A DNA stretch of 64,000 bases from assembly GCF_034424215.1 (NCBI RefSeq), contig NZ_CP139960.1, positions 1,426,001 through 1,490,000 of the forward strand, in the 5' to 3' direction. Source of the DNA: Niabella yanshanensis (lineage in GTDB: Bacteria > Bacteroidota > Bacteroidia > Chitinophagales > Chitinophagaceae). A program made the translations under genes and the position numbers. Under the pieces are notes generated by a model, which saw only the letters and a program-made list of their open reading frames with translations, ran no database searches and was not told the DNA's origin. Within the stretch, counting starts at the first letter, position 1. Each line of letters begins with the position of its first letter. Positions 2,094 through 63,890 of this stretch are shown here, one piece after another.

Positions 2094-4916
2094 TTATCTA
2101 CCTAACTCCGTTTCCTTTGATTGCACCTGTTTTCCATCTTTACCGGTTAACTGCAGGTGAAAACGGATGGGCAAGTCCATCTCCACCGGAACCGTAAATT
2201 CGAATGGATATTCTTTTTTTACCATCTCTTTAGGAGATGCTCCGTTAATACGATATACCAGTTTTGCTGAATTCCATTTAGTATCATCGTCCTGCAGGAA
2301 AACATAGAGCCGGCGTGCATAAGTGCCCATTGTAAATAACAGCGCTTTTGCATTTCCTTCAGCGATCACGGCATAGTCGGTAGTGCTCCCAGCCTTAGCC
2401 CCCAGTAGCTGATCCTGGAAACCTTTGGGAATATCAGCTCCTGGAATCGCTATCGCTGCTATGCCTGATGCAGGCACCATAAGTTGAAAAGAACTATCCT
2501 TTAATGCCTGTACCTGCCCGAGCGGTGACAATAATTTCACGGCTGCCTGTTTGGACAAAGCAACCCTGGATGGATTAACAGTAACCCTGGTAGTAACCGG
2601 TTTTAAGGACTGGTTCATAAAGGCGAGCAGCAACGTATCTCCCTTTTTTGCACTGATATAATTCAAGGCGATATCATCCGTCTTTAAAAGCCGGGAGGGC
2701 ATCCATAACTGAGCTTCCCCTAAAGAAAAAAACAAGCCTTTTGCAGCGCCATAAAATTTGTTTTGGAGATAAGCATATCCTTCAATATACTCGCTGGGGA
2801 AATCGATCTGCCCGTTACTTTTTACAAAAGCATCGGTTACCAGGTAATCCATAAACATAGATGCCATGGGCAGTATATGGTTATAGTGAAATGAGTTCAC
2901 GCTTTGGTCTTTATGCCGGTGGAGGGGAAAGTTTACTTTTTCATATGCTGTTGTTCTTTCGGTATTCATATGATAACCAGGGAAGCTTTCCGAACGCCCG
3001 ACTACAGCAGCTTTGGCAACATTCATCAAAAAGCTGTCTTGGGTATAATACCCGATCCTTAACAACCAGGGCGCGTAATTGGACATAAATATGCCCCTGT
3101 GCCCTGTTGAAGTGCCGGAGGATTCGGATGTAAGCCCCATTTCAGAAAGACGCCAGGCCGGTACTTTTTCTTCAGGATAATACATTTGCCGATGCCCTTT
3201 CGATTTCAGGTACCAATACATGGGAGCTTTACCACCTTTATTCACTGTAACAAGGGTATCAGGGATTCGCGGTCCCATCCAGGTAAATAAAGTGTAATGC
3301 CGCGCGCCATCGTGTGCTGCATCGAGATAACGCTTTTCACCCGTCAACTCATATAATTCCAATAATGCAGACCAGTTATTGGTAAACGTAGGCCAGAAAA
3401 AGTTAGAGCTCACCATGGGATCACCAAATTGCTCCATTTTTTTCTCTACCCTGTCTGCCAGGTATTGATCCGCCAATTCCATGCTTAGCTTCAGGTAAGA
3501 TGAATCGGATGTGAGCCTGAACATAAACATGGCATTGATCCAGTTTCTTCCTTTTTGCTTTTCATCCAGGTTCCGGACACGGGCCCCGCCAAATTCTTTT
3601 TCAGCCATAAGGGGATAAAAAGAATGGGTGCGACCGAGAAGATTATATAGGACCTGTAATTCGGACAAGGGTGCAATGGGTCCTTTTAATTTCCTGGAAG
3701 GTGATTGTATTTTCTGCGTACTATCGAGTGTAAACAAAAATTTTTCCCTTGACAACATAAACTCCATTAAAGGATATGCTCTCGTTTCAAACATATCTTT
3801 ATCATCTCGTATCAAAGCCAGCTCCATTGGATTCAGGCTCGACACATTTTTTACCGCGCCGGGCACATCTGTTGAATAAGCAAAGCCTTTTAAACTGTCG
3901 ATAAACCAGGCGTAATGTGTTTTCGAATAATCAATCAGGTTATCCAATGTTGTATTCATGGATACCGTTGCATTGGTACGATAGTCCCGGAATCCCATTT
4001 TTTCTTTAGCCAGCTGCTCATAAGTATGGGTGATATCAAGAGGCTTTACAATAAGGCTTACAGAAAATGAAAATCGGTTGCCCGCATTCATATGCGAGCC
4101 GGCTCCGCCCATAACGGGAGCAAACACCTGCGGCTGCAGCTTTCCCGCATCATTACACAACGCAATACCAAACTGGCTGTTCTCCAAAAGAGGCAGCGGC
4201 TGAAAAGGCAGGTGCCGGGGATCAGCCATTACACCGATCGAATGATGACCATCGTTTACCAACGTGGTGGGAAGCGTTGCCATGAAAGAGGGAGTCATAT
4301 AAGGCTGTTGCGGGGCTCTTTTCTCAGTCCAGATTAATGGCTGCCATAGTTCTGCCACCTGACCCTTATCCAAAGAAGGCGCGCCGATATAGCCTACGCT
4401 ATAGAAACCGTCTTCTTTTGGCGTTAATACAAAATGGATCTGAATATCACTTCTTGTTTTTTTTATCCATGCTTTAAGCACAAACAACGGGTTTTCCGGG
4501 AATAAGAGTAGCGTTGAATCGAGCGTTACTATTACTTTATTGGCCGTTAAAAAAAAGCTGGTTCCCGAGCGATATATATTGGCTGTCCTGTTCTCATTTT
4601 TACTCCTTAATATCTTATCATCAAATCCATCGCCGGCAACAGCTTCACTCACTTTTTGCTGCACATAGTCCGCGTTGGCAGTATCCGTAGTTTTCCAGGT
4701 AGGCACATTGTAGGAAACTTTGGCTATCCCCGCAGGTTTCAATGCCAGAGCAGGGTCTGCAGAATTAAACAAGACCATGAACCGCGGTAAAAAATCATAG
4801 GCCTGCCCGCCTGATGTAATAGTTACCCGTCCATCCTTTTCTATTGGCGATTGTGCCAATACCGGACCATAAACACAGGTGATCACTGCAAAAAAAAGTA
4901 TAACAACTGGCTTCAT
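2094..4916 (-). CDS. Large secreted putative carbohydrate-active protein (paralog C, 940 aa)
   Basis: The protein starts with a clear signal peptide (hydrophobic residues 3-21, then AQS). The middle third looks all-helical and rich in Trp, Tyr and His, as in (alpha/alpha)6-toroid glycosidases and lyases. The last ~200 residues look like beta-sandwich domains. The stretches YAPWLLR, SESFPGYH, SFHYNHILP and DFPSEYIEG align with equivalent segments in the proteins at 9512-12922 and 12930-15536, so the three are paralogs. I do not recognise a named family or catalytic residues. The position in a SusC/D operon next to a GH97 gene argues for a periplasmic or surface role in glycan breakdown. It lies 11 bp downstream of the GH97 gene. 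Confidence 0.75.
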   Translation of the reverse strand: MKPVVILFFAVITCVYGPVLAQSPIEKDGRVTITSGGQAYDFLPRFMVLFNSADPALALKPAGIAKVSYNVPTWKTTDTANADYVQQKVSEAVAGDGFDDKILRSKNENRTANIYRSGTSFFLTANKVIVTLDSTLLLFPENPLFVLKAWIKKTRSDIQIHFVLTPKEDGFYSVGYIGAPSLDKGQVAELWQPLIWTEKRAPQQPYMTPSFMATLPTTLVNDGHHSIGVMADPRHLPFQPLPLLENSQFGIALCNDAGKLQPQVFAPVMGGAGSHMNAGNRFSFSVSLIVKPLDITHTYEQLAKEKMGFRDYRTNATVSMNTTLDNLIDYSKTHYAWFIDSLKGFAYSTDVPGAVKNVSSLNPMELALIRDDKDMFETRAYPLMEFMLSREKFLFTLDSTQKIQSPSRKLKGPIAPLSELQVLYNLLGRTHSFYPLMAEKEFGGARVRNLDEKQKGRNWINAMFMFRLTSDSSYLKLSMELADQYLADRVEKKMEQFGDPMVSSNFFWPTFTNNWSALLELYELTGEKRYLDAAHDGARHYTLFTWMGPRIPDTLVTVNKGGKAPMYWYLKSKGHRQMYYPEEKVPAWRLSEMGLTSESSGTSTGHRGIFMSNYAPWLLRIGYYTQDSFLMNVAKAAVVGRSESFPGYHMNTERTTAYEKVNFPLHRHKDQSVNSFHYNHILPMASMFMDYLVTDAFVKSNGQIDFPSEYIEGYAYLQNKFYGAAKGLFFSLGEAQLWMPSRLLKTDDIALNYISAKKGDTLLLAFMNQSLKPVTTRVTVNPSRVALSKQAAVKLLSPLGQVQALKDSSFQLMVPASGIAAIAIPGADIPKGFQDQLLGAKAGSTTDYAVIAEGNAKALLFTMGTYARRLYVFLQDDDTKWNSAKLVYRINGASPKEMVKKEYPFEFTVPVEMDLPIRFHLQLTGKDGKQVQSKETELGR

Positions 4917-4927
4917 TGTAAAACAGG

Positions 4928-6973
4928 CTAAGGATTTAAAGATTTACTTTTGATCAAGCTGTCACGACGCGATGACCTGGTTGCAGCATTACCTGTTAGC
5001 CGCAATAACCAACCACCATGGGGTGCCAGCTTCAATGACAAAGATGTTAGATCTGCAGAAGGGATAGCAGCAACACTAAAGCGATTATCCTTGTCGGTTA
5101 TATGAGTAGCTTTATACTTCGACAATTGCTTTATAAAAGAAAGGTCAGGATCAATAACCAGTTCCTTATCCTGCCCATTGATTGCCGCTACGTACCAATC
5201 ATTACCACTTCTCTTTGCAATGACAGCACAGCCACCAATCTGGCTTTGCGAAAGCACAATACTACTATCCCAGGTGGCAGGAAGATCACGGATAAAGGGA
5301 ACGATGGCTTTATACAACGGATCATTTACCAGTTTGACGGGATTTTCAGCTATACATTGAAAAGGTGACTCCAGCAAATACAAAAGTGCCAGCTGATGAG
5401 TCAGGGTTGTAGGTCCCTTATTGCTGAAGAAACCTGGCGTATAGTCAGCCGGTCCCACCATAAACCTTGTAAAAGGCAGGGCTGTATTATGCCACGCGGG
5501 AATAGGCTCATTCATTATATTCAACTCCACCCCCCTCACGCCTTCTCTAGTCATTTCATTAGGAAAAGTCCGGAACTCACCGGTGGACGCATGGCAACCG
5601 TGAAAGTTGACCATCAGATTTTTACGCGCTGCTGCCTTCAGGAAATTAATTTCAAAATCAATAAGCTCCTTTGCTTCACTGTTCATAAAATCTATTTTGA
5701 TGCCCGCCACACCCAGGCGACTTAATGTATCCAGGAAGGCATTCCGGTAAACGGAATCTCTGAGAAATTTTGAATCCTTCCAAACCCACAATTGAATATT
5801 GTTCTTTTTACCATACGCCACCAGATCATTCAATACTTCCCATTTGTTTACCCAGGCCTGTTCCCATCCGTCATCAATTAATGTATAATCATAATGAAGT
5901 TGAGCAGCTGCATCTATGATCTTTTTTTCATTTGCGGGATCCAGGTAATTTTCATCGCGGCTAATCCAGCTCCAGGCGCTCTTTCCCGGTTTGATATAAT
6001 TAGTATTTTTAAATAGCTTTTTATCCGGTGCAGGATTTAAGGCAGCCACGACACACTGGTTGGCTAATCCGTCCAGGTCGGCCGCCCAGCCAATCACCCT
6101 CCAGGGCGTGAAAGATCCGGCCGGACTGTTTACATAAAAACCGGCTTCACCCTCTGTAAAGTCAACCAGGAGACTGTTTTTCCTGGCCCTGAGTCGCATG
6201 CCGCTGTAGTTGTATAATGCAGCCTCCGTTATAAACAGGTATTGCGGGCCAGGTAATTGTACAATCAATGGCTTACCCTGAACCGGACCGGTCGGAGAAA
6301 TTTTATCAAGGCTATCCAAACGGGTTTGTTGCCATAAACCTGCATAGGATTTCAACTTCCAGTTATTGGCACGTTCAAAAAACCAAACGGGGCGGTTACC
6401 TTCCAAAACAAAACTGGTTTGTTCGCCTGTAATATAAAGCTGTCCCTTCGGTAAATGATAACGAAAAGCACAACCGTTGTCAAATACAGCAAACTCAATG
6501 ATTGCTTTCCCCAACCTTACCTGGTATCTTTTGTAGGAGATAGCCCGTTCTCTATAATTATTTTTAAGAAGGTTTAAAGATACCTGCACATCGCCGGTTT
6601 CAATAAGCTCTGGTAAAGCTTTGGGATTTATCAAAGGAAGGCCAGCAATGCTCAGGCCTAAATCAGAATTATGTATCAGCGGCTGAGCATCTTTCAATAC
6701 CGTATAAAAAGCGCCTTGTTCATTTTTAATTACCTGCACTATTAAAGAGCCGGAAGGGCTTTCAAGTGTTAATCGTTGCTCTGTACTGTGGCCGGTAATT
6801 GATGTGGTAAGTATTATAGCAATGCTTAAGACGACGACACGCACCATACGACGGGCATGAAATATACAGGCAGCGTCTAACAAACGCTTGAATTTTATAA
6901 AACTATATATCCAGCCTGCATGTTTCATTGTATACCTGTTGTTTTCCGATGCCGGTACAAAAAAAATTTTCAT
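4928..6973 (-). CDS. Glycoside hydrolase family 97 (alpha-galactosidase-type candidate)
   Basis: The order of segments fits GH97: an N-terminal beta-sandwich (LESPSGSLIVQV), a TIM barrel with DYTLIDDGWE, then GIKIDFMNSE, VNFHGCHASTGEFRTFPNE and TREGVRG, and a C-terminal beta domain. GH97 enzymes cleave alpha-glycosides in the periplasm. The Asp in KIDFM sits where retaining members (BtGH97b type, alpha-galactosidase) carry the nucleophile; inverting SusB-type glucosidases use Glu bases instead, so a retaining mechanism is inferred. The ATG at 6973 overlaps the previous stop (TAATG), which supports coupling, but a normal signal peptide begins only at Met43 (ATG at 6847: MVRVVVLSIAIILTTSITG). 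The true start is therefore open. Confidence 0.9.
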   Translation of the reverse strand: MKIFFVPASENNRYTMKHAGWIYSFIKFKRLLDAACIFHARRMVRVVVLSIAIILTTSITGHSTEQRLTLESPSGSLIVQVIKNEQGAFYTVLKDAQPLIHNSDLGLSIAGLPLINPKALPELIETGDVQVSLNLLKNNYRERAISYKRYQVRLGKAIIEFAVFDNGCAFRYHLPKGQLYITGEQTSFVLEGNRPVWFFERANNWKLKSYAGLWQQTRLDSLDKISPTGPVQGKPLIVQLPGPQYLFITEAALYNYSGMRLRARKNSLLVDFTEGEAGFYVNSPAGSFTPWRVIGWAADLDGLANQCVVAALNPAPDKKLFKNTNYIKPGKSAWSWISRDENYLDPANEKKIIDAAAQLHYDYTLIDDGWEQAWVNKWEVLNDLVAYGKKNNIQLWVWKDSKFLRDSVYRNAFLDTLSRLGVAGIKIDFMNSEAKELIDFEINFLKAAARKNLMVNFHGCHASTGEFRTFPNEMTREGVRGVELNIMNEPIPAWHNTALPFTRFMVGPADYTPGFFSNKGPTTLTHQLALLYLLESPFQCIAENPVKLVNDPLYKAIVPFIRDLPATWDSSIVLSQSQIGGCAVIAKRSGNDWYVAAINGQDKELVIDPDLSFIKQLSKYKATHITDKDNRFSVAAIPSADLTSLSLKLAPHGGWLLRLTGNAATRSSRRDSLIKSKSLNP

Positions 6974-8061
6974 TATAGTTGAAATGTGATGGTACGGGAA
7001 GCAAGGGTTCTTCTGCCATCTGGCCTGAAGTCGAATGCATAGTATAACCGGATCTGCTGTCCTCCTTCAACACTACTTACTCCTATGATTGCCGGGTACC
7101 AGGCTTTTGGTCCGTCTTGCAAGAGCAATTTTGGATTTTCCCAGGTTTCTGCATTGGAGCTTGCAGAAATATATAATTTACCATCCCACCCATGCCATAT
7201 CATTATAAATTTATTCAGGTAGGTATTCCAGTGAACAGAAGGATTAGAGCCAGGATTCATTGTAAGCGGAGATAGCGCGGTTTGTTTGCCTCCCAGGCCA
7301 GGTTCTGAAAACGACCCATTATACCATTTTTTCCAGGACCCTACGTAGCCGTTCTGGTCGGACGAAACAGCCATACAAATAGATGTAACCCCGGTAGCAG
7401 GTGTGTAGTAACAATAGTATTTATTATTTAAGTGATTATAAATTACAGCTCCATCTCCCAGTCCTGACCAGGACGGTGTTGCGGGTTTATCCACCTCATG
7501 TTTTAATATCTGGTAAGGTGCGCCCCAGGATCTTCCACTGTCGCTTGAATAGGCAACTCCAATAGATTTATAAGCATACCACCCTTGGGTAGTTCTGGGA
7601 TACCAGTGCGTTTCCGCATGAAAAAAACCCGCTAAGCGACCGTCATTTAACTGTCTCACCCCAATAAACCACATGCCCCCGTCATTAAAACCATTAGAGG
7701 TGCCGTTATTAGGCTGATTACCTCCAAATACAGGAGTTAAAGGGTTCAACTGACCTAAATGATTTTCTAATAGCGGAGAATTGGCTACCGTTCTGTAATT
7801 GCGGTATCTGGCCCAAAAGCCGTAGTACTGGTTACCCAGTTTGATTAAAGGAATGGCGCCATCGGTATAATACCCGCTATCAGAAGGGGGAAATGTGCTC
7901 TGGGATAAAACGGAACGATCTCCCAATGTAAAACTCCAACCGGCTGTCAAAGATGCCTTCTTCAATCCAGGATTATCTTTTACAGGGCTGTCATATTTAC
8001 TACATGAATTCCAGTAAGAAAGTAGTGGTAAGGCAAATAAAACAAATGAAAATTTAATCAT
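6973..8061 (-). CDS. Beta-propeller lipoprotein, sialidase/GH43-like fold
   Basis: The 362-aa protein begins with a hydrophobic leader and a Cys at residue 20 (SYWNSCSK), consistent with lipidation, though the lipobox is not ideal. Repeated Trp/Tyr-rich strands and an Asp-box-like segment (SSDSGRSW) indicate a sialidase-type or five-bladed propeller. Segments such as WHGWDGKLYISAS and WSGLGDGAV also look like propeller blades. Enzymatic activity is uncertain: the sequence does not show me a full catalytic triad for a named GH family, and it could be a glycan-binding propeller. It is coupled to the GH97 gene by a 1-nt stop/start overlap and sits inside the SusC/D operon. Confidence 0.65.
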   Translation of the reverse strand: MIKFSFVLFALPLLSYWNSCSKYDSPVKDNPGLKKASLTAGWSFTLGDRSVLSQSTFPPSDSGYYTDGAIPLIKLGNQYYGFWARYRNYRTVANSPLLENHLGQLNPLTPVFGGNQPNNGTSNGFNDGGMWFIGVRQLNDGRLAGFFHAETHWYPRTTQGWYAYKSIGVAYSSDSGRSWGAPYQILKHEVDKPATPSWSGLGDGAVIYNHLNNKYYCYYTPATGVTSICMAVSSDQNGYVGSWKKWYNGSFSEPGLGGKQTALSPLTMNPGSNPSVHWNTYLNKFIMIWHGWDGKLYISASSNAETWENPKLLLQDGPKAWYPAIIGVSSVEGGQQIRLYYAFDFRPDGRRTLASRTITFQL

Positions 8062-8100
8062 GTGAAAAATTTTAGGGATGAAGATTTTAAACCCGATATA

Positions 8101-9525
8101 TTATTTAAGCATTGTTCCCCTGATTAAAATGCGTCCCAGGTAAATGACCGATTGATCATATTTTTCCGGGTAAGCTTCAATGTCGGCTCTTTGATCTGGT
8201 GATAATATTTTTAGTTTATCAGATTTTTGTGAAGACACATAAACTTTCACATCGTGTGTCCCCTTCACCAACCTAACGATATCGAACTGCCCGCGATATC
8301 GGTTATTGCAATAAGCATTGAAGCGGTTTAAAGCTGTAGCACTCGCGGCTTCTGCCACTTCAGCCTGATAATAAATAAAACTCCCCTGTTTCTGTCTGGT
8401 TAGCTGCACCGGCTTGCCATCAATGATCCATTCGAGCTGTCCTGCTTCGGGGCCGCCGATATCAAAAACGCCAACCATATCTCCTTTAAAACGGAAGCTA
8501 AATGAAGCGCCAGGCTGAGATGCAGCATAGACTTCACTAAACCACCCTTTGAATTTTTTAAGGTTGGAGTTTAGATCAGTATCAATGGCTTGCCATCCCT
8601 TATTATTCTCAGCAATATGACCGGGTATTACCATGGTAGCCTCATCCCAGTCCGCAGTAATTAAAGGCGCCGGCAATTCCTGTTTCCTTTTCTGTTGCTG
8701 CGACTCCATCTTCAACAGAGAACGTGCTATAGCTGCAGCATAAAGATTACCGCCGGCAATTGTAGGGTGAATGCCATCTTCGGAGAACATCATTTTATCC
8801 GGGTATTGCACTCCCGCGGTTTTCCAAATCAGTTTACCGGCCGCTTCCAGACTTGCTGCTTCCATGCCTAACTGAACAGAGGGAAGCCCATAATAATCCG
8901 CCACACGCTCCAATCCTTTAATATTTGCAGGCAGTTCATTCTTCTGATAAAATACAGTTTGCCCCGTCAAAATTGTATAAAGCAGGCAAACCTCTGTTCC
9001 AGGATGCTGCCTGATCGTTTGACGGATCATTCCTTCTATTCCATCGGGATACGCTCCGTTTACAGCAAACTCAATAAAAATAAGATCGGGATTATATTGC
9101 AATACCTGTTCGCCAATTCTAAAAGCCCCCAGCTCTGTACCCGTACCGGAAACACCTGCGTTGATCCATTTAAAATGGGAACCTGGAAAATGCTGCTTTA
9201 AATAATGAGCGGTCTGTAGCCGGTAACCAAAATTCGCCTGGGTAATACTTCCACCTACAAAAGCCACTACAAGATCCTGTCCTTTTTTAGCTTTTTCGAA
9301 AAAACCGGGGATGCCCAAACGCACCCGGCATTCCATGCTATTTTCGTAATTACCTGGCTGTATCGAAGTAATGCCCGATTCAGGAACATCAAAATAAACC
9401 GGCGAAGCTCCAGCCTGTGAAGCTGCTATCCTGTCCTTATCCATACCCGACTGACACACCACCACAGCCGGCAGTAACAGGCTCATCATTACAAAAACAT
9501 ATAAGCAGAATTTATTCGCTTTCAT
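8101..9525 (-). CDS. SGNH/GDSL hydrolase, probable secreted carbohydrate esterase
   Basis: SGNH blocks are visible in order: VAFVGGSITQ (block I Ser, in a GGSIT variant), NAGVSGTGTE (block II Gly), FIEFAVNGAYPDG (block III Asn) and SEDGIHPT (block V Asp/His). After residue ~230 there is a beta-rich C-terminal region. These hydrolases often remove acetyl or other acyl groups from polysaccharides; the substrate here is unknown. I chose the ATG at 9525 because MKANKFCLYVFVMMSLLLP is a typical signal peptide. The longer frame from 9597 would overlap the upstream gene by 86 bp and bury that leader. With this start the overlap is 14 bp. Confidence 0.82.
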   Translation of the reverse strand: MKANKFCLYVFVMMSLLLPAVVVCQSGMDKDRIAASQAGASPVYFDVPESGITSIQPGNYENSMECRVRLGIPGFFEKAKKGQDLVVAFVGGSITQANFGYRLQTAHYLKQHFPGSHFKWINAGVSGTGTELGAFRIGEQVLQYNPDLIFIEFAVNGAYPDGIEGMIRQTIRQHPGTEVCLLYTILTGQTVFYQKNELPANIKGLERVADYYGLPSVQLGMEAASLEAAGKLIWKTAGVQYPDKMMFSEDGIHPTIAGGNLYAAAIARSLLKMESQQQKRKQELPAPLITADWDEATMVIPGHIAENNKGWQAIDTDLNSNLKKFKGWFSEVYAASQPGASFSFRFKGDMVGVFDIGGPEAGQLEWIIDGKPVQLTRQKQGSFIYYQAEVAEAASATALNRFNAYCNNRYRGQFDIVRLVKGTHDVKVYVSSQKSDKLKILSPDQRADIEAYPEKYDQSVIYLGRILIRGTMLK

Positions 9526-12500
9526 TGAACACAATCTGTTTAGATATCGTCCTGGATTGATCATCTTTAAACGTAAGCGCGACAGCAATAGGTTCATTCA
9601 TTGGCAGTTTATTATAGCTCCATTCGTAGGGATACTGGTTGACCTGCTGTGTTTTTTTATTACAGGTTATCGTAACAGAGCAGTTCTGTAAAGGAGCTGT
9701 TTCTGCAAACCCATAGAAGGTATCCCACCCGAATGGTGAACGGATACGAAAAAGAAACACTTTGCCCCAGGGTGCTCCCAGGTCGATCACTTTCATACCA
9801 TTTTTAACAGGTGGATAGTTTTTAGCAACAACGGCAGTTTCTAACGGGACTGCTACTGCTTTAAATCCTTTAGCAGGTAGCATAACAGTCATGGTTGCGT
9901 CCTTAAAATCGATGGAAGTGGATTTACCGTCACTTTGATAACCCAAAGCTGCACCGCTTTTTTTAGCATTTGTTTTCGGTGACCACTTTAAATTGACGGT
10001 TTGTTCTGTGGCAGCTTCGGACGAAAGCAATATCCAAAACTTCCTGTCAGATGTTGCAGTCACATAGTTAATTGCAGGATTGCTGACAGACAACAATCCT
10101 TTTTGCATATACAAAGTTGCTTGTTCATCATCAAATACCTTACCCTTACCACCACCATAAACACGGTTATTAAACCACACAAAACCCTCCTGTTTACTAT
10201 ACGGGAACATTATATTTCCTCCGGACCGCTGAATCGTTTCGCTGATTAAATAATCAAGGCTGAAAGCCATATGTGCAGGAATATGGTGGTAATAAACAGA
10301 ACTCACATCCGGGCCTTTATATGGGAATGCAGCTGACATGGGCACATCGGTAAACCCTGTTGCATAATAACCCGGGTAATTAGCATAGCGCCCAATAACA
10401 CTATTGCGGGCGTAGATCTCATAAATAGGCTTTTGAGTAAACTGGTACAACCGCAGCAAGTGAGGAGCCCAGCTGCTCATAAATACCGGATGTACGTTTT
10501 GCCCCTTAACTCTTGTGAAGTAGGTGCTCGGTTGTTCCAGGCCCAGCCCTACGGGAGATACCACCCATTCGGAAACCTTCTTTTCCTGCACATCGCCGTC
10601 TTTTCTTGGAAAACCTAACCGGTAGGGAGCATTTCCCTTCCACCAGATACGTGTTACCCCGTCATAACGACCACCCGGATGAATCATTTGCAGCTGATCT
10701 TCTACTTTGGGATAGCTTCTTATTCCTGCAATCGTAAAATAAGCTCCATATCCAGCAGCTTTCAGCCATTTATCATTTTTCGTAGTTTCGTATAAGTCAA
10801 GCAGGTCCCACCATGGCGCATAAAAAGAAGCGTTATAAAACGGGATATGGCTTAATAACTTGTTGGTATTGGTATAGATTTTTTGCTTTACAAAATTGTC
10901 AGCATCTTTCTCCGCCATTGCTAACCATTTCTTTTGCCCGGTTAACCGGTAAGCCCATAGCGCCTGGTTCCATTTATGAAAATCGGTTGAGTAACCTTTC
11001 ACAGCTCTAAGCGAGTCTCCGGGTAAAGCGATATTGCTCAGCCATGGATTCAGCTCGCCCAATAAACGATGGAGGCCTAAGTAATAAGAAGTAGTAAACT
11101 GTGACTGGTAAGGATTTAATTTTAGTGTTTCGCGGGTTGCATTAAAAGCAGTAGGTACAATATCTGTGGCCCACCGGTAGCCGCTTCTTGAAATCGTAAA
11201 TTCAATGGTAGGTAAGGAGCGGGATACATACAGGTCTTCATCATTTTGCAACACTGCAAGCGACACGTTGAGTAAGGGCGTCGCATTCACCACCGTTGGA
11301 GCCGTTTTAGGATCTCCTTCAATATCATAAAAACCTTTCAACTCCGGAGCCCAGCCACCTGCGCTATCGTTCTTTGCCAGTTCGATCATATTGAACACGG
11401 CATCAGTTAGAGAAACATCCTGTTGTTTCCTGTAATCCTTTACTTCGAATACTTCGTTAGAAACTTCTTCCAAAGCGCTGTCCCAATCCCCGGTAGTTAT
11501 ACCAATAACAAAATGGCGGTCGATCAGCTGATCCTGCTGATACCGGGAGTCTTTCATACCAAACACCGGCGAAAACATTACCGGTTGCAGCTGGTTCTGC
11601 TCATTCTTCAAAGTAAATCCAACCGGTGCAAAGTCTACCGATCCCCAGTCCTTGGGAAATGATTTCAGATCTGCGGCCACATAGGCCGATACCAGCCCCT
11701 GTGCTGTTTTAGCCGATACGATAGCCAGTGGTTGTTGCATCATAGAGGAAAGCATCATTTGCGGGCCTTCAGATATGCGCTTGTATTGAAACATCGGGGC
11801 CATCATCACATTGTGCAGTTCGGCGTCGGCAATAGCCTGGAATGCGGCTACTCCCATACTGTAATAGCCGGGACGCGCCGTCTTGCAGGTCAGGCGCAAG
11901 TCAATATGTTTTTTACCGGCTGCCAGCGACCATAGCCCGGTAATAACAGAACTGTTACGCGTTACATATTGCACTTCGATTGTTTGCTGATCAATGGCGG
12001 TGGCAGATACCGGAATAGCTTCGCTAAAATTCCCCGCCTGGAAAGGATTAAACTCTTCGCCCGGCTTACGCACTTCATATTTTTTCCCTTCAAAAAGAAA
12101 ATGCGCATTTAGTTTTTTATTGTCCCAGGTTGGATAATATTTATTATAGCCAATTACTGCTGTGTCGTCATAGATAAGATATATTTTATGATCTTCTATT
12201 GAACTGCCTGATTGCAACCACTTACCATCCTTCTTAATTTCGGTTTTGCACGCAATAGCTTTTTGATGAGCCCCTCCCCTGACGAACTGCAGCCGAAGCA
12301 CCTCGTTATGTATGGTTGCTACTACTTTGTCATCAGCATGCAGCTCAAGCGGAGCACTTACCGCCTGTTGCTGACCGGACAACACCAGCTGTTCTTCCGG
12401 TCTTACTTTCCACGAAAGAAGGGTTTGCTTGTTTAACTTGTTTGGATTAATGCTGCTATCCTGTACGAAAAGGATAGCATCGCACCGGCCATAATTAAAA

Positions 12501-12922
12501 TTATGCAATCGTAAAAGAGAGGGGGCATTTTTCAAAGTCACCGCGCCCACTTTTTCCCATAAGTATCCGGGCTGACCATGTCCTCCGGCCTTCTTCAGGG
12601 TAATATCTCCAACTAACAATTGTATGAATCGCGTACGGGGATTCACATCAAAGTCGGGTGTTCGTACCCACACCGTAAAGTTGCCCGCCTGCTTTATATC
12701 AATCACAGTAAGTGCATCTGTTGCATCGTCACCGGATCCGCCTATACAACGCAATACCTGGCCGCTAAGCGTTTCCCTGTCTGGTTCTGTAAACCACTTA
12801 CCTTTAAACTGGAAGTCTGTCCCCAGCAATAAGTATTTTCCCTGTTGTGCAGAAACATTCGCCATTACCAGGATCGTAATGAAAAGCAGTACTGTTCTTA
12901 TTGTTCTACTCCAATGCATCAT
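9512..12922 (-). CDS. Large secreted putative carbohydrate-active protein with extra N-terminal domain (paralog B, 1136 aa)
   Basis: A signal peptide (residues 6-25, ending VSAQQ) is followed by a ~130-residue jelly-roll-like domain (GNFTVWVRTPDF, LLRLHNFNYGRCDAILF) resembling a carbohydrate-binding module, absent from the two other paralogs. The remainder follows the same plan as paralogs A and C: a beta-rich part, an all-helical part (LYETTKNDKWLKAAGYGAYF, SSWAPHLLRLYQF, YANYPGYYATGF, SSVYYHHIPAHMAF), the signature GGNIMFPYSKQEGFV, and a C-terminal beta domain. No family or active site recognised. It lies between paralog A (7 bp upstream) and the SGNH gene (14-bp overlap) in the susC operon. 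A lyase or exo-glycosidase role is a guess from context only. Confidence 0.75.
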   Translation of the reverse strand: MMHWSRTIRTVLLFITILVMANVSAQQGKYLLLGTDFQFKGKWFTEPDRETLSGQVLRCIGGSGDDATDALTVIDIKQAGNFTVWVRTPDFDVNPRTRFIQLLVGDITLKKAGGHGQPGYLWEKVGAVTLKNAPSLLRLHNFNYGRCDAILFVQDSSINPNKLNKQTLLSWKVRPEEQLVLSGQQQAVSAPLELHADDKVVATIHNEVLRLQFVRGGAHQKAIACKTEIKKDGKWLQSGSSIEDHKIYLIYDDTAVIGYNKYYPTWDNKKLNAHFLFEGKKYEVRKPGEEFNPFQAGNFSEAIPVSATAIDQQTIEVQYVTRNSSVITGLWSLAAGKKHIDLRLTCKTARPGYYSMGVAAFQAIADAELHNVMMAPMFQYKRISEGPQMMLSSMMQQPLAIVSAKTAQGLVSAYVAADLKSFPKDWGSVDFAPVGFTLKNEQNQLQPVMFSPVFGMKDSRYQQDQLIDRHFVIGITTGDWDSALEEVSNEVFEVKDYRKQQDVSLTDAVFNMIELAKNDSAGGWAPELKGFYDIEGDPKTAPTVVNATPLLNVSLAVLQNDEDLYVSRSLPTIEFTISRSGYRWATDIVPTAFNATRETLKLNPYQSQFTTSYYLGLHRLLGELNPWLSNIALPGDSLRAVKGYSTDFHKWNQALWAYRLTGQKKWLAMAEKDADNFVKQKIYTNTNKLLSHIPFYNASFYAPWWDLLDLYETTKNDKWLKAAGYGAYFTIAGIRSYPKVEDQLQMIHPGGRYDGVTRIWWKGNAPYRLGFPRKDGDVQEKKVSEWVVSPVGLGLEQPSTYFTRVKGQNVHPVFMSSWAPHLLRLYQFTQKPIYEIYARNSVIGRYANYPGYYATGFTDVPMSAAFPYKGPDVSSVYYHHIPAHMAFSLDYLISETIQRSGGNIMFPYSKQEGFVWFNNRVYGGGKGKVFDDEQATLYMQKGLLSVSNPAINYVTATSDRKFWILLSSEAATEQTVNLKWSPKTNAKKSGAALGYQSDGKSTSIDFKDATMTVMLPAKGFKAVAVPLETAVVAKNYPPVKNGMKVIDLGAPWGKVFLFRIRSPFGWDTFYGFAETAPLQNCSVTITCNKKTQQVNQYPYEWSYNKLPMNEPIAVALTFKDDQSRTISKQIVFNESE

Positions 12923-12929
12923 TTGTTGT

Positions 12930-15536
12930 TTAATCGAACCGGAAACTGTATACCTGAAGTCCGTACGGGTTGATATTTACCTGGTCGCCCCACGAAAAGG
13001 GAATCCGTTTACCATTTGCAGATAAGCAGTTAATACTCTCTAATTGCAAACGATGTCCTGCCATAAAACGTGATGGATTGATCTGCAAAGTGGACTGTTG
13101 CGCGTCATCATCATTATTCAATACAAACAGGTAAAACTTTTTTGTTTCCAGGTCGAGTGCGCAGAGGTAATCAATATTGGGGTTATCAAACGATACGAGC
13201 TGATCCATCAATACCAGCCGGGCTGGCTCACCGAATATCTTACCGGCATCAAATCCAAAAGTTTTATGAGGACCTACTTTAGGTGTTACAAAGCCCGAGG
13301 GAAATGCGATACGCCCCCCCGACCTCAATGATAACTCAGACATCAGGTAATCTGTTATCCAGCCTACCTGCCACCAGGCATGGTGTGGAAAAGGTCCCGC
13401 TCCTCTGTTCATAGCGCTCCAGTAATAGGAAGCCACACCCGTAGCAGGATCAACAAAAGCATCTTTAGCTAACGCCGCGGTACGGGCCATTTTAAGAAAA
13501 AGAGAATCTCGGGTCAACTCAAAAAAACGAACAAACATACCTGCGTGGCTGGCTAATAGTATAGGTCCGCTGGGATTGGCTGAACCTAAAGTGCCCCCAT
13601 GTTCAAAGCTTAAACCTACCTGGCTGATCTGCCAATCCTCTAATGTTCGCGCACCATTCTTCTTAGTGCTGCGATCCGGAATAGGGTGAGAATATATGGA
13701 TGTAGTATAATACCTTGCGGTAGTGATGGCCGCTTGCTTAAACCGAACCTGCCTGGTCATATCATACAGATCCAGCAAAGCCTGGGCGCTTTGGGCAGTT
13801 GCAAAATCAGGAGCAAACCTGGCATCGCCACAAACGCCTAAGAAGTAACCGGGCTCCACCGCGTTCTTTATAAACCAGTCAGCTGATCGCAATGCAGCAT
13901 CCAGGTATTTTTTATCGCCCAGTAGTTTGTAGGCAACCAGTAAGCCATAAAATGTAGGCCGGTAATCTTTTTGATCTGTGAACATCGGCTTTTGAGTACC
14001 ATTGTTATAAGCTACTTCCCAAAATCCTTCCGGCTTCATCTTTGCAAGCAGCCAGTCGGCAGCCAGCCTGAGTTCGGTCTTTAGTTTTTGATGCCCTGGC
14101 TCAAACAATAAAACATTCCCGATATCGAGCATCATATAATAAGTGGTAGCGATGGGCTCCGTATAAGCTCCCCATTCCTCTGTAAACCGTTTAGACCGGT
14201 ACAGGTAATACTGTCCTGCAGCAGCCCCTTTAAAAAAGTCATCTGCCGTATGTTGTTGCGCCAGTTTAAAATTCAGCGCCTGGGGTAAGCGGGTATGTTG
14301 TAGTACCGAATCGCCTGTTATGGTTCCCAGCATCCACATCGCACCATAGTCAGCATTTTTTACGGCATCCTTTTCAGATTCATGAACGCCTCCCAGATAT
14401 TCCTGGGCGCCAATAATACTCCCCTTATAGTCAAATGTGCGCCACCGGGAAGTGCTGTCATTTTTTACATAACCCAGCAACTGTTCCATTCTTTGCGATA
14501 AGGACAAATTCGTTTGCTTTAAATGCAATAGTTGATCAAAACGATACACATCATTTACTACGTGCTGGTAAACGGGATACCAGTTTTTATCTTCAATAGT
14601 AAACCTGAAATTGAACGATATAGACTCTCCTTTGTTTAAGAACGATTTTTGTTGCCCCAGCACAGGATGATACAAGGTAGGTGTTAATTGTTGATTACGA
14701 TTGACCAGAGATAAGCCCAATAACCAATCAGACTGGGTAGATTTGTCTGACAACCAGGGATGCCTGGCCGTACCCGGTTCTGCTGTCACTGCTATCGTAA
14801 CACCTTCTTTGTTGGTTAAAATGGAAGTAAGTGCCGCAGCGGTTCTTTCTCTTACAACTACAGGAACATCGGGGATACCGTGACCATAGGCATAAGCATC
14901 TACAAAGTTATTATTAATTGTTTTGCCCTGGAAAATACCGGGTATAACGGCCCAGTCAAATTGTTTTTTATCGTTTACTGTTAAAGCCGGCGTAGCTATT
15001 GAATAGTAGCCCGCAGCCCTGGCGGTTAACCTGATCGTAACCCTGAGATCATGCGCATGAACAGGATCCGGTTTCCAGGTAGCTTCTACATCCGCTACAT
15101 CCGTGTTCTGAGAAAATACAAGCGTATTCCCTACCGCCCTGCATTGTTGGGGATAGAAAGAAACTGCATTTCCTTCTTTGTTTAATGAGACCGCTGAGGT
15201 ATTGGCCTTCCAGGTTGGAATTATATAGCGATATTCCGGCTCAGGAAACAAAACCTCCCCTCCTTTTTCGTCTTTAATCACCTGGGCGTCCATTCCGGGC
15301 TGGTTCCTGCTGTAAAGTATGGTATATTGCCCTGATACTCCCGACAGGGAACGCCATTGCTGCTGCCCGTTTACCTGCAGCTGCTGTAACCGGTAGCCCT
15401 CGTTAGTGTATACCCAGTTCATGCGTAATCCACGACTTTCCAGCTTAGGCGCTTTTAACGACTGGCTATACCCGCCGATACCAGGTATCGATAACAATAC
15501 CACTGCCACAAAAATATACAAGCTCAATCGGTTCAT
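12930..15536 (-). CDS. Large secreted putative carbohydrate-active protein (paralog A, 868 aa)
   Basis: Signal peptide at residues 5-25 (FVAVVLLSIPGIGGYSQS). A beta-rich N-terminal half with IIPTWKA near residue 107 matches the NVPTWKT segment of paralog C. The helical part has YLDAALRSADWFIKN, SHAGMFVRFFEL, PHHAWWQVGWITDYLMSE and the shared signature SGGRIAFPSGFVTP. A C-terminal beta domain ends the protein. The helical repeats with 'LG-DKKYLDAALRSADWF' resemble those of six-hairpin glycosidases, but I cannot assign a GH or PL number. It is the first enzyme-like gene after susC, susD and the DUF5017 gene (7-bp spacers), so it may act early in handling the imported glycan. Confidence 0.75.
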   Translation of the reverse strand: MNRLSLYIFVAVVLLSIPGIGGYSQSLKAPKLESRGLRMNWVYTNEGYRLQQLQVNGQQQWRSLSGVSGQYTILYSRNQPGMDAQVIKDEKGGEVLFPEPEYRYIIPTWKANTSAVSLNKEGNAVSFYPQQCRAVGNTLVFSQNTDVADVEATWKPDPVHAHDLRVTIRLTARAAGYYSIATPALTVNDKKQFDWAVIPGIFQGKTINNNFVDAYAYGHGIPDVPVVVRERTAAALTSILTNKEGVTIAVTAEPGTARHPWLSDKSTQSDWLLGLSLVNRNQQLTPTLYHPVLGQQKSFLNKGESISFNFRFTIEDKNWYPVYQHVVNDVYRFDQLLHLKQTNLSLSQRMEQLLGYVKNDSTSRWRTFDYKGSIIGAQEYLGGVHESEKDAVKNADYGAMWMLGTITGDSVLQHTRLPQALNFKLAQQHTADDFFKGAAAGQYYLYRSKRFTEEWGAYTEPIATTYYMMLDIGNVLLFEPGHQKLKTELRLAADWLLAKMKPEGFWEVAYNNGTQKPMFTDQKDYRPTFYGLLVAYKLLGDKKYLDAALRSADWFIKNAVEPGYFLGVCGDARFAPDFATAQSAQALLDLYDMTRQVRFKQAAITTARYYTTSIYSHPIPDRSTKKNGARTLEDWQISQVGLSFEHGGTLGSANPSGPILLASHAGMFVRFFELTRDSLFLKMARTAALAKDAFVDPATGVASYYWSAMNRGAGPFPHHAWWQVGWITDYLMSELSLRSGGRIAFPSGFVTPKVGPHKTFGFDAGKIFGEPARLVLMDQLVSFDNPNIDYLCALDLETKKFYLFVLNNDDDAQQSTLQINPSRFMAGHRLQLESINCLSANGKRIPFSWGDQVNINPYGLQVYSFRFD

Positions 15537-15543
15537 TTTTTTG

Positions 15544-16443
15544 TTATTGAGTGATCGTAATCTCCATTTCTTTGATTGCAGACGCAGACGCTTTAACGTT
15601 TGCGTTGGTTGCTACAAGTGTTACTTTGTAGACCCCCGGCCTGGTATATACACGCCGGTATTCATACAAATTCTGTGATATATTTTTGATAGTCTCCCCC
15701 TTGTCCGGGTTGGTTTTATTGGGATTAAATTGCTTGGTGATCACCCAATCATCATCCAGCGCCAGCGGATTAGTAACCGTTAACAGCTGTACGGAAGTGA
15801 CACTCCATTTGGTTGTAGGGCCACTGAAGCTAAAAGAACTCCATCCTGCTGTTGCCATTGTAGCAATAGCGGTTTCTTCGTTTTGCTCATTTACGCTTTT
15901 CAGATCAAATGAACGGATCACCCAGCGGTTCTGGGCGCCATCAGGCTTCACAACATTAGTCTTATAACGGAAGGCTAATGCCATATTTTTATTACGTGCA
16001 GCAAACTCACTCAGGTCGATATTGCCAGAAGAGGTTTGATCCAGTCCGGATGACAGTATTGCTTTACTGGTAATATCCTCCCAGGTGGCGGCAAGTACAT
16101 TAGCTGAATCATACTTTCCATTAAAATCGGTAGAAACCAGCAACTTTAAAGTGCTCTGATCTACAGGTTTGGGTCCGTATTGAGCAAAGCTTTTAAAGTT
16201 CAGCCCGATAATATTACCCTCTACTACGGTCCTTTCTCTAAACTCATACCTGCGGCCTGGTTCACCCGACCAGAACACTATATTATCGGGCTTACCATTA
16301 AATGTAAACAAGATCGGCTCTCCCACTTTATAAGTGGCTTTTTCAAGTGTAACAGAAAAATCTTCCACTGATGCCAGCTCATAACGCTTTGTGCAGGATA
16401 CAAGCGCGGCAGATAGAATGACAATGGCTATAATCTTTTTCAT
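15544..16443 (-). CDS. DUF5017-type surface glycan-binding lipoprotein (SusE/F position)
   Basis: The 299-aa protein starts MKKIIAIVILSAALVSCTK, a textbook lipoprotein leader with the lipobox ending at Cys17. The ATG at 16443 was chosen for this reason; the longer frame from 16554 adds 37 residues that read through the susD tail. The region TYKVGEPILFTFNGKPDNI and FWSGEPGRRYEFRER is characteristic of DUF5017, an immunoglobulin-like domain of Bacteroidota glycan loci. A C-terminal PKD-like stretch (YTRPGVYKVTLVATN) follows. It lies directly after susD, where SusE/SusF-like proteins are found, so a role in holding the glycan at the cell surface is likely. Confidence 0.85.
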   Translation of the reverse strand: MKKIIAIVILSAALVSCTKRYELASVEDFSVTLEKATYKVGEPILFTFNGKPDNIVFWSGEPGRRYEFRERTVVEGNIIGLNFKSFAQYGPKPVDQSTLKLLVSTDFNGKYDSANVLAATWEDITSKAILSSGLDQTSSGNIDLSEFAARNKNMALAFRYKTNVVKPDGAQNRWVIRSFDLKSVNEQNEETAIATMATAGWSSFSFSGPTTKWSVTSVQLLTVTNPLALDDDWVITKQFNPNKTNPDKGETIKNISQNLYEYRRVYTRPGVYKVTLVATNANVKASASAIKEMEITITQ

Positions 16444-16453
16444 AAATATAATT

Positions 16454-18025
16454 TTACCAGCCGGGGTTTTGTTGAATATTGGGGTTAACGGCCAGTTCAC
16501 TGTTGGGGATAGGGAACAGGACCGAGCGTTCTGTGATTCTCTGAGCCTGGGCAATAGCCGGGTCTCTTAAGGCAGCAGGCATATTAGACTGGTATTCTCT
16601 TATCTGGGCCTGCATCGTGGAGGGATAAATGCCCCACCTGACAAGATCATGTTTGCGTAAGCCTTCAAAAGCCAGCTCCCTTAAGCGCTCACTCATAATT
16701 AAATCCTGGAAGTCCTGCTTTGAAAGTCCGGCGGGGGCGTCTATCGCGGGATCAGCGGAACCCACATCTTTACCGTATCCCCGTCTTCGCACCATATTGA
16801 TAGCCATATATGCCTGCTGCGAAGGGCCATTATTAACTTCGTTATCTGCTTCCGCGAACATGAGCAAAACATCAGCATAGCGTAACAAAGGCCAGTTAGT
16901 ACCGGTATAATTCTGATCACGGGGCAGTAGCGTTTCATATTCCCTTCTCCATTTACCATTGCTGCGTTCATATAACTGGTCTGCAGCCCAGGCAGTTCTT
17001 ACAACGGTTTGCCCGGTTGTCACAAATCTGAAGGGCGCTACCGTCCAGTCTCTCCTTAAGTCGCCGGGATCATATGCGTTATAGAGCTTAGCAGTAGCAT
17101 GAACATAATCATATCCGTAACCGGTATCTCTATTACCGCAAGTGATGCCGTTATAGCTGCCAATCATACCACCTTCCTGTATTTCGTTTTTGTTGGCTCC
17201 TTTAAACTCTACTTCCCAGATGCCCTCCCCTGTGTCGAATGCTTCCCGAACATGATTGATATAAATCTGCCTGAAATCCGGATTAAGCTTGTGTACGCCC
17301 GATTGTATGACGCTATCTGCATATTTTCTCGCTTCTGCATATTTTGACACATCGTTAAGGGGAGCGCCTGCCATGGTCAAATAAACCCGGGCCAGTATGC
17401 CCTGAACAGCCGTTTTGGTAATGCGAGTATTATACCCATAATCAGAGATGGTTCGCACCAAGCCTTCAGCCTTCTTCATGTCTTTGATAATTTGCTCATA
17501 GACTTGGGCAACCGGCGTACCCGGTAAGGGTGGTTCATAGGGGTTTTTACTCGACTGAAGTTTCAGAGGTACAGAACCAAACTCATCTGCAAGCATAAAA
17601 TAATAGTATCCTCTTAAAAAAAGTGCTTGTCCTTTGATCTCGTTGCGCCTCTGTTCACTAACACTTGTAGCCTTATCAATATTCTCCAATAGCATATTAG
17701 CTCTTTCAATACCTACATAGATAGATTCCCAATGCCGGTTTATTTCCAATGTTGAGGCATCAATGATATTGGCATTAATACCCGAAGTTTGGCTCTTCAT
17801 AAAAAACTCATCGCTGAAAACCAGATAACAGGCCATACCCTGGGAGTACATACGGTTATCGCCGAGCCTGTCGTACACGCCGGCAAGCGCTGACTCAAGC
17901 TCCATTTCGCTATTGTAGTAATTGGAAGGATGAACAAAGTCCTGTGGTGTAGTGTCCAGTATTTTATTACAGCTACCGGTTGCCACCAGTAGTACAACCA
18001 GAGTATAACAGTAAATCAATTTCAT
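16454..18025 (-). CDS. SusD/RagB family outer-membrane glycan-binding lipoprotein
   Basis: The 523-aa product has a lipoprotein leader (LIYCYTLVVLLVATGSC), then NKILDTTPQDF, the usual start of a mature SusD. Tetratricopeptide-like helices follow (QRRNEIKGQALFLRGYYYFMLADEFGSVPL, a SusD hallmark, here abbreviated by its central FLRGYYYFMLADEFG). The C-terminal SusD block includes MSERLRELAFEGLRKHDLVR and FPIPNSELAVNPNI. SusD lies over the SusC channel and captures oligosaccharide. I chose the ATG at 18025; the frame from 18109 adds 28 residues ahead of the leader. It lies 101 bp downstream of susC. Confidence 0.95.
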   Translation of the reverse strand: MKLIYCYTLVVLLVATGSCNKILDTTPQDFVHPSNYYNSEMELESALAGVYDRLGDNRMYSQGMACYLVFSDEFFMKSQTSGINANIIDASTLEINRHWESIYVGIERANMLLENIDKATSVSEQRRNEIKGQALFLRGYYYFMLADEFGSVPLKLQSSKNPYEPPLPGTPVAQVYEQIIKDMKKAEGLVRTISDYGYNTRITKTAVQGILARVYLTMAGAPLNDVSKYAEARKYADSVIQSGVHKLNPDFRQIYINHVREAFDTGEGIWEVEFKGANKNEIQEGGMIGSYNGITCGNRDTGYGYDYVHATAKLYNAYDPGDLRRDWTVAPFRFVTTGQTVVRTAWAADQLYERSNGKWRREYETLLPRDQNYTGTNWPLLRYADVLLMFAEADNEVNNGPSQQAYMAINMVRRRGYGKDVGSADPAIDAPAGLSKQDFQDLIMSERLRELAFEGLRKHDLVRWGIYPSTMQAQIREYQSNMPAALRDPAIAQAQRITERSVLFPIPNSELAVNPNIQQNPGW

Positions 18026-18126
18026 TCGCGGGTATTTATTGAGTTGAATCGAATGGAATATTTTCAAATACACTTCTTTATGAAAAGAATTTTTATGAGT
18101 ACATTTCATTGTAAAAGCATTTATCG

Positions 18127-21303: not shown

Positions 21304-21497
21304 ATGCAATAATCCTTATTTAAAAAGCTGGTTTATAAATGGGGAACAATCATTGTATCGTAGGCAATAACCATCCGTACTTCATTACAGCAGCCCTATG
21401 CTGACTATCATAAAGCTTGTACTGAATCAATAATATCCCTGGTAATGACAAACTACATTTAAGCATTTTACAATCGTTAAAAATAAAAATAGTCTGG

Positions 21498-63442: not shown

Positions 63443-63890
63443 AGCCAAGTTTACTGCTTTTTTTTTTTTACAGCCAAAATCGGTTTTAACGCAAGCCTCA
63501 ATATGAAAAGTCACCCTCAAGTATAGTTGTATAAACTATTGAAAACCAAGTAATAAAAAATTACTTAAAAACACTTAAACAGTGTGTATACTTAATACAG
63601 TTACCATTGGTTTACGAGAAGACTATTATTCTTAGCATTTTGGATGTTTCCTATCTTCAAAGGTATTAATTTATGGTTACATTACGAACAACAAATGACG
63701 GAGCCCTAAATTTCCACCCTCACTATTTGAGGTGATGAAGCAACTGCAAGGGCCGGCAACCCGGAGAAATAAACACATCTATATTTGTACAAAATCCCAG
63801 CGCGCTCATTCCGGCAGGATAATGGCAGCCCATATTATACTATTGCCCTATACCATAAACATGTCGATACAACCAAGCGAAAAATACTGA
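63443..63890. other. Intergenic region between the two NRPS genes
   Basis: About 450 bp without a gene I can support. It has the candidate promoter at 63658-63665 and a small inverted repeat AAGTAAT/ATTACTT at 63548-63566. A CACC-CTCA/TGAG-GTG stem with one bulged base lies at about 63716-63735. No recognised operator or riboswitch. Confidence 0.6.
63658..63665 (-). promoter_or_regulatory. Candidate promoter of the hybrid NRPS-PKS transcript, -7 element
   Basis: On the minus strand this reads TACCTTTG, matching TAnnTTTG. A TTTG lies 26 bp upstream (forward CAAA at 63692-63695), somewhat farther than usual. The leader to the ATG at 63442 would be about 210 nt. Confidence 0.35.

Follow-up and report, generated by a model that had tools for sequence, protein, structure and literature searches.

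Three related giant proteins of a Niabella SusC/SusD locus tentatively assigned to a new family of secreted glycan-cleaving enzymes

The operon analyzed here lies in a stretch of 64,000 nucleotides from Niabella yanshanensis (contig NZ_CP139960.1, positions 1,426,001 to 1,490,000; hereafter the window) and encodes three giant secreted proteins, P1, P2 and P3, together with a SusC-type transporter and a SusD-type lipoprotein. Our favored, still tentative reading is that the giants are a new family of secreted glycan-cleaving hydrolases feeding a pathway that consists of a Na+/solute symporter and a flavin adenine dinucleotide (FAD) oxidoreductase. The reading builds on the homology of the three proteins, the predicted fold of P2 and P3, the conservation of residues among their relatives, and the genetic linkage between giants and flavoenzyme, which is a solid new fact.

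Homology, history and predicted fold of the giants

P1 (940 amino acids (aa); 2094-4916), P2 (1136 aa; 9512-12922) and P3 (868 aa; 12930-15536) are all encoded on the minus strand, exactly where and at the lengths given in the initial annotation, and each starts with a hydrophobic segment that by eye resembles a signal peptide. The assignments rest on reading frames, BLASTP and conservation, with AlphaFold2 models for P2 and P3. BLASTP aligned P1 with P2 (E 3e-59, 26% identity over 713 columns), P2 with P3 (E 2e-28, 24% identity) and P1 with P3 (E 7e-20, 21% identity), and profile-profile comparison matched P3 to P2 (probability 100, E 2e-52, 746 columns) and P1 to P3 (probability 99.9, E 5e-36, 734 columns). 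These significant matches bear out the proposed paralogy and, at the level of sequence, place homology beyond doubt. The motifs originally ascribed to all three proteins are distributed more unevenly: YPGYY and SVYYHHI are present in P2 and FPGYH and SFHYNHI in P1, P3 has no PGY motif and carries PFPHHAW, and GGxIxFP occurs in P2 and P3, the corresponding segment of P1 being NGQIDFP.

A scan of species genomes with the P2 alignment returned 94 relatives in 134 candidate stretches; the top 80 were retained and represent 73 distinct loci. With the window these make up the 74 loci discussed below, some of which share one contig (L082, L091) and some of which are cut by contig ends. The 73 loci came mainly from Pedobacter, Niabella, Chitinophaga and relatives, gut or rumen Bacteroidales, and Dysgonomonas, the outliers being one Verrucomicrobia assembly and two loci in one unclassified bacterial assembly. 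All three subfamilies were present in 28 of the 74 loci, and P3 stood directly upstream of P2 in 58 of the 61 loci with both (in one of the 61, P3 is a short fragment). In a tree of 148 proteins with midpoint rooting, P1, P2 and P3 were each monophyletic, with support of 1.0, 0.99 and 1.0, respectively. Identity to the window protein was 56-70% among P1 relatives, 47-73% among P3 relatives and 30-69% among P2 relatives, as against 21-26% between the paralogues. A recent tandem triplication was rejected, given the monophyly of the subfamilies and their long stems.

The genes also occur in other combinations. Six other loci have P3 but neither P1 nor P2, and SusC/SusD is in view in five of them; in several loci that lack P1, a second P2-like gene takes its place. 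A phylum-wide search with the P3 profile gave full-length matches in four genomes; the rest, apart from P2, were short and covered one helical stretch. These patterns indicate that the giant set is old and modular and did not arise by local triplication. The initial annotation had concluded from triplication within the operon that the proteins perform distinct steps on one glycan; that inference calls for revision, but different steps remain plausible because most positions under strong conservation are subfamily-specific. Sister to P1 is a fourth subfamily, with proteins of about 985 aa, seen in L026-L028 and in full in L167 (9605-12547), L177 (5002-7959) and L178 (4452-7397), and the giants comprise three, perhaps four, subfamilies. 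Loci of the fourth subfamily contain a FAD oxidoreductase, a Na+/solute symporter and an SGNH gene, and L167 and L177 also an alpha-fucosidase gene. Long open frames in which a symporter is joined to P3 and GH97 to P1 (L060 6719-11005, L061 17061-21629) are either fusions or missed stops. L077, from Niabella defluvii, has truncated or fragmented versions of P1, P2, P3, SusC and the flavoenzyme alike, owing to decay or to an error-rich assembly.

AlphaFold2 modeled P2 from 65 sequences with a predicted local distance difference test (pLDDT) value of 91.7 and a predicted template-modeling score (pTM) of 0.87, and P3 from 53 sequences with values of 90.8 and 0.91, respectively. Both models consist of a beta-sandwich domain, a twelve-helix (alpha/alpha)6 barrel and a C-terminal beta domain, in agreement with the order of beta, helical toroid and beta parts first read from the sequence; for P1, we infer a similar fold from homology. 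The predicted barrel spans residues 505-899 of P2 (10226-11410, minus strand), as judged from secondary structure in the model, and residues 346-738 of P3 (13323-14501, minus strand), as judged from secondary structure and VIA-align. At residues 28-154 (12461-12841, minus strand), P2 carries a putative carbohydrate-binding module that shares the lectin-like beta-sandwich of CBM6/CBM35 (Z 12-13, root-mean-square deviation (rmsd) 2.1-2.7). The match to 2cdp had a Z of 13.2 and an rmsd of 2.1 over 116 aligned residues, and single-domain CBM35 structures scored Z 12.3-12.5 by VIA-align. Unlike these families, the module has no Pfam CBM match at E up to 1.

In sequence searches, P1, P2 and P3 passed no curated cut-off in Pfam or NCBIfam, and the NCBIfam scan gave nothing near one. 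Below the Pfam cut-offs were GH127 (PF07944; 17.7, 14.3 and 14.1 bits on the giants, cut-off 24.9), GH88 (PF07470; P3 at 20.4 bits, cut-off 26.6, with no match for P1 or P2) and C5-epim_C (P3 at 15.3 bits, cut-off 23.3), and the AGE model PF07221 matched none of the three at E up to 1. Single-sequence searches of the PDB at E up to 1 yielded one match in all, a dynein at 0.54. Profiles of the 65 P2 and 53 P3 proteins aligned with GH76-type enzymes over a single helical stretch (E 4e-4 and 1e-3), the P3 profile gave weaker matches to LanC-like proteins and GH88, and a profile of 27 P1 proteins found nothing below E 0.04. None of the three profiles matched a PL27 or PL26 entry among PDB sequences at E up to 10, a comparison that covers family members with solved structures. 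When seven GH88 proteins of this genome were combined into a profile, it matched P3 with 70.8% probability over only 139 columns, whereas the giants matched each other at 99.9-100 over 734-746 columns.

The weak glycosidase matches in Pfam and the PDB therefore signify a barrel and not a family, since they extend over a single helical stretch, such as P3 531-605. GH127 beta-L-arabinofuranosidase and GH88 unsaturated glucuronyl hydrolase have the (alpha/alpha)6 barrel in common with the giants. GH127 also has a conserved catalytic cysteine, whereas no Cys column in the 148-protein alignment reached at least 93% in two or more of the three giant subfamilies. Membership by sequence in GH127, GH88, GH76, PL26, PL27 or AGE was rejected, each being below threshold or absent; families absent from the VIA-align lists were not counted as excluded. 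L120 and L138 provided no bridge from the giants to a solved enzyme. The initial view that the family is unknown holds for Pfam, NCBIfam and PDB sequences, CAZy and dbCAN lying outside this comparison. Judged by these three libraries, the giants likely form an unnamed family, and a very recent CAZy family is possible.

Linkage to a FAD oxidoreductase and other partners

The gene that follows P1 encodes a FAD oxidoreductase of about 760 aa (PF12831; minus strand, 1-2063, continuing outside the window to G000:C1:1425787 in the genome of the organism, G000). It is likely cytosolic because no signal peptide was seen by eye. Directly after it lies a Na+/solute symporter gene (G000:C1:1424107-1425771, starting about 230 bases outside the window). 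Symporter and flavin oxidoreductase are both frequent partners of the giants that had not figured in the initial annotation.

Among 244 genomes of the family, the flavoenzyme was found in 30 (E up to 1e-100) and the giants, searched with P1 and P2 as queries, in at least 25, after G087, G106 and G199 had been set aside because their matches cover only the binding module of P2; in the scanned proteins of that type, the module precedes a secreted FAD oxidoreductase. The flavoenzyme was present in 24 of the 25 giant-bearing genomes versus 6 of the 219 others (Fisher p 1e-26). The exception, G153, has a 111-residue giant match at a contig end in a genome that is 84% complete. In each of the 26 giant-flavoenzyme pairs from the 24 genomes, the two genes shared a contig and were within 10 kb of each other; for 25 pairs the distance was within 5 kb. 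G002 and G226 have their giants in two separate loci, each accompanied by a flavoenzyme copy of its own; in G426 and G485, which belong to another family and carry P3, the flavoenzyme again lies within 5 kb. The chemistry of the flavoenzyme is a guess. PDB relatives of this enzyme align with no more than its initial 80 or so residues. Some secreted FAD oxidoreductases about 600 aa long, too, start with the binding module of P2, namely in L148 and L149 (PF12831 shown) and the related L150-L154, and one such module-headed enzyme is encoded in a P3 locus (L162 8231-10030).

Across the 74 loci, which contain P2 by construction, the neighbors were SusC (62 loci), SusD (61), P3 (60), DUF5017 (51), the FAD oxidoreductase (50), SGNH (46), the Na+/solute symporter (44), P1 (29), GH3 (25), GH97 (19), GntR (15), DUF4886 (10) and GH2 (7). 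We compared the partners of P1 in the 64 loci that extend 6 kb or more downstream of P2, with relatedness ignored. P1 was associated with GH97 (both in 17 loci, P1 only in 12, GH97 only in 2, neither in 33; Fisher 4e-6) and tended to exclude GH3 (4, 25, 18 and 17 in the same order; Fisher 0.002). When 72 unlabeled same-strand neighbors were scanned, 47 families were matched, with single proteins matching GH92, GH31 and an acetylesterase; no PL, GH88 or GH105 was among the 25 families listed, the other 22 being weaker single matches. GH88 has nine matches with E below 1e-40 in the organism's own genome, plus weaker ones, and none in the locus except the sub-threshold stretch of P3.

Overall, the partners include GH97, GH3, GH2, one GH31, one GH92, esterases, one galactose-1-phosphate uridylyltransferase and one galactokinase-type kinase, a repertoire that suggests side sugars such as galactose, glucose or similar ones and no particular backbone. 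Since one esterase and GH97 are the only enzymes recognized in the window operon besides the giants, and the listed neighbor families include no PL, GH88 or GH105, the giants are the leading candidates for making the main cut.

Candidate active site and mode of cleavage

We searched for shared catalytic residues in an alignment of 148 proteins (65 P2, 53 P3, 27 P1 and 3 of the fourth, P1-like subfamily), with related sequences counted. Only three acidic or basic residues were identical in all 148: a Glu in a GLxxE motif (P1 598, P2 796, P3 645), a His at the start of the last barrel helix (P1 680, P2 880, P3 719) and an Asp within that helix (P1 690, P2 890, P3 729). A Ser (319/504/345 in P1/P2/P3) and a Trp (337/524/365) were also identical in all 148, and an Arg (379/568/416) was 99% conserved. 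The invariant Glu and His are catalytic candidates; their codons, all on the minus strand, lie at 3123-3125 and 2877-2879 in P1, 10535-10537 and 10283-10285 in P2, and 13602-13604 and 13380-13382 in P3. Strong conservation of other residues is mostly confined to one or two subfamilies, a pattern that would fit different substrates or linkages.

As hydrolases, the giants would take part in the import and digestion of a glycan, probably acylated, via the SusC/SusD locus. Esterases would remove the acyl groups, exo-glycosidases of GH97, GH3 or GH2, depending on lineage, would strip the side sugars, and P1, P2 and P3 would make the main cuts, each at a different linkage. The active site would lie in the (alpha/alpha)6 barrel, where the GLxxE Glu would serve as general acid and the pocket would include the invariant His of the last barrel helix. 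One product may then enter through the Na+/solute symporter and be oxidized in the cytosol by the linked FAD oxidoreductase. Most close folds of the P2 and P3 models are carbohydrate-active enzymes, and the beta-sandwich of P2 aligns with many glycosidase beta domains in VIA-align.

It is possible, though in our estimate doubtful, that the giants are instead polysaccharide lyases, a new family resembling PL27 or PL26 that would act on uronate glycans by beta-elimination with the His or a neighboring Tyr as base. With whole P3, Foldseek placed the PL27 L-rhamnose-alpha-1,4-D-glucuronate lyase BACCELL_00875 (5no8) first (E 4e-12), but GH65 (3e-10) and GH94 (1e-9) followed within two to three orders of magnitude, and then other hydrolases. 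With whole P2, hydrolases or transglycosylases led the list (dextran dextrinase, endo-alpha-N-acetylgalactosaminidase and alpha-galactosidase, E 3e-7 to 2e-6) and 5no8 ranked 15th (E 8e-6), the P2 TM-scores being low because the chains are multi-domain. His/Asn-rich motifs such as HYNH, YYHH and PHH resemble lyase pockets, and the main invariant pocket candidates are one Glu and one His. The architecture of PL27, an N-terminal beta-sandwich and an (alpha/alpha)6 barrel as given in a passage of PMC8377490, is the same as that predicted for P2 and P3. VIA-align superposed 5no8 on P3 with a Z of 21.4 and an rmsd of 3.8 over 324 residues, but identity on this alignment was 9%, the giants have an extra C-terminal beta domain, and there is no sequence match. 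The PL26 exo-rhamnogalacturonan lyase 5xqg, with a beta domain and a helical part, aligned across P2 196-903 (Z 15.9, 476 residues), with an rmsd of 25 over the whole span; the beta domain alone superposes well (5xq3: 237 residues, 3.9 A). Moreover, the GH88 scan of the locus and the families listed for the 72 neighbors gave no hydrolase for the unsaturated uronates that a lyase would release. On balance, a hydrolase appears somewhat more likely than a lyase.

The slimmest chance goes to the giants being sugar epimerases or isomerases, or catalytically inactive glycan-binding scaffolds. Cellobiose 2-epimerases were the nearest VIA-align matches of the P3 barrel (about residues 342-742; Z 24-25, top 25.3), ahead of GH76 (up to 23.1, 6u4z), PL27 and a GH88-type unsaturated glucuronyl hydrolase (20.5), and the catalytic His of these epimerases precedes the last helix, a place that His719 resembles. 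However, cellobiose 2-epimerases use small sugars as substrates and lack an N-terminal beta-sandwich; they and AGE proteins are single-domain chains of about 390-410 aa, whereas the giants have 868-1136 aa, signal-like N-termini and, on P2, a binding module, do not match PF07221, and have only one His common to all. There is also a slim chance that the giants cut without plain hydrolysis, by lyase- or epimerase-like His/Glu chemistry, and release an unsaturated, anhydro or keto sugar, for which the FAD oxidoreductase would be obligatory after uptake by the symporter. If true, such an obligatory step would account for the joint occurrence of the genes irrespective of the side-chain enzymes.

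Several points weigh against the hydrolase reading that we favor. A classical inverting hydrolase requires two carboxylates, and the only ones common to all giants are Glu598/796/645 and the helix Asp690/890/729. A lyase heads the whole-chain fold matches of the P3 model. The 362-aa protein of the operon (6973-8061) could itself be an enzyme. Searches of the open-licence literature returned nothing on these proteins and no reported activity for any member. Regarding the linkage, the count of giant-bearing genomes is a lower bound, with P3 not queried and about three best candidates scored per genome, and the co-occurrence tests ignore relatedness. Giant matches occurred in 14-16 of 101 genera. 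The flavoenzyme was not seen in the examined stretch of 24 of the 74 P2-selected loci. In 6 of 30 genomes the flavoenzyme occurred although no giant was detected, and hence it is not giant-specific; for these we searched about 19 kb around the gene with three profiles in five genomes and a 5.2-kb contig in the sixth. Its neighbors there were GH95, GH29, GH16, GH43, GH2, a DHDPS-family aldolase, and SSF or MFS, with no common sugar.

The operon, its surroundings and wider meaning

SusC, SusD, the DUF5017 lipoprotein, P3, P2, the SGNH esterase, the 362-aa protein, GH97, P1 and the FAD oxidoreductase form a co-directional run on the minus strand, with genes overlapping or separated by about 40 bases at most. 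The operon begins with the SusC-type TonB-dependent transporter (18127-21309; TIGR04056, E 3e-268) and the SusD-type binding lipoprotein (16454-18109; PF07980, E 5e-38, and PF14322, E 2e-32), on the same strand as the giants, in line with the single SusC/D operon of the initial annotation. It continues with the DUF5017 lipoprotein (15544-16554; PF16409, E 4e-63) and, beyond P3 and P2, the secreted SGNH/GDSL esterase (8101-9597; PF13472, E 9e-11). By eye, the starts of SusD, the DUF5017 lipoprotein and the esterase are probably near 18025, 16443 and 9525, respectively. The 362-aa protein (6973-8061) has no Pfam or NCBIfam match and occurs in only 3 of the 74 loci. GH97 (4928-6973) was recognized by Pfam and NCBIfam; its nearest solved relatives are of mixed specificity, namely the alpha-glucosidase 5hq4, the alpha-galactosidase 3a24 and the beta-arabinopyranosidase 5xfm. 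A divergent GntR-type regulator gene with a sugar-sensor domain lies upstream of the operon (21672-22700, plus strand) and has relatives in 15 of the 74 loci. With adjacent SusC and SusD, co-directional carbohydrate-active genes and a regulator, this is a SusC/SusD polysaccharide utilization locus, and it would work like others of its kind.

Elsewhere in the window, two giant genes of 2404 and 1758 aa (51030-63520, minus strand) encode condensation, AMP-binding, ketoacyl-synthase, acyltransferase, carrier and thioesterase domains and make up a hybrid nonribosomal peptide synthetase-polyketide synthase (NRPS-PKS) natural product cluster. A GMC-type oxidoreductase gene (PF05199/PF00732; 37456-39180, minus strand) lies about 16 kb from the SusC end of the operon. 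The whole genome (5.5 Mb) has 81 matches to the SusD model, which marks the organism as a glycan specialist.

The giants are of the broad kind of carbohydrate enzymes that combine a beta-sandwich with an (alpha/alpha)6 barrel, and by sequence they fall within none of the families tested. By record names, their hosts are soil, rumen and gut Bacteroidota, plus one Verrucomicrobia assembly. New families of carbohydrate-active enzymes originate from unassigned large secreted proteins of sugar-uptake loci, and here two invariant catalytic candidates and a flavoenzyme partner offer testable mutants and a genetic clue to the end product. In light of the open-licence literature searched, the linked symporter and flavoenzyme hint at an undescribed breakdown route for a sugar polymer. 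Identifying its glycan would add to the known degradation routes one with key proteins that none of the libraries used here can name.

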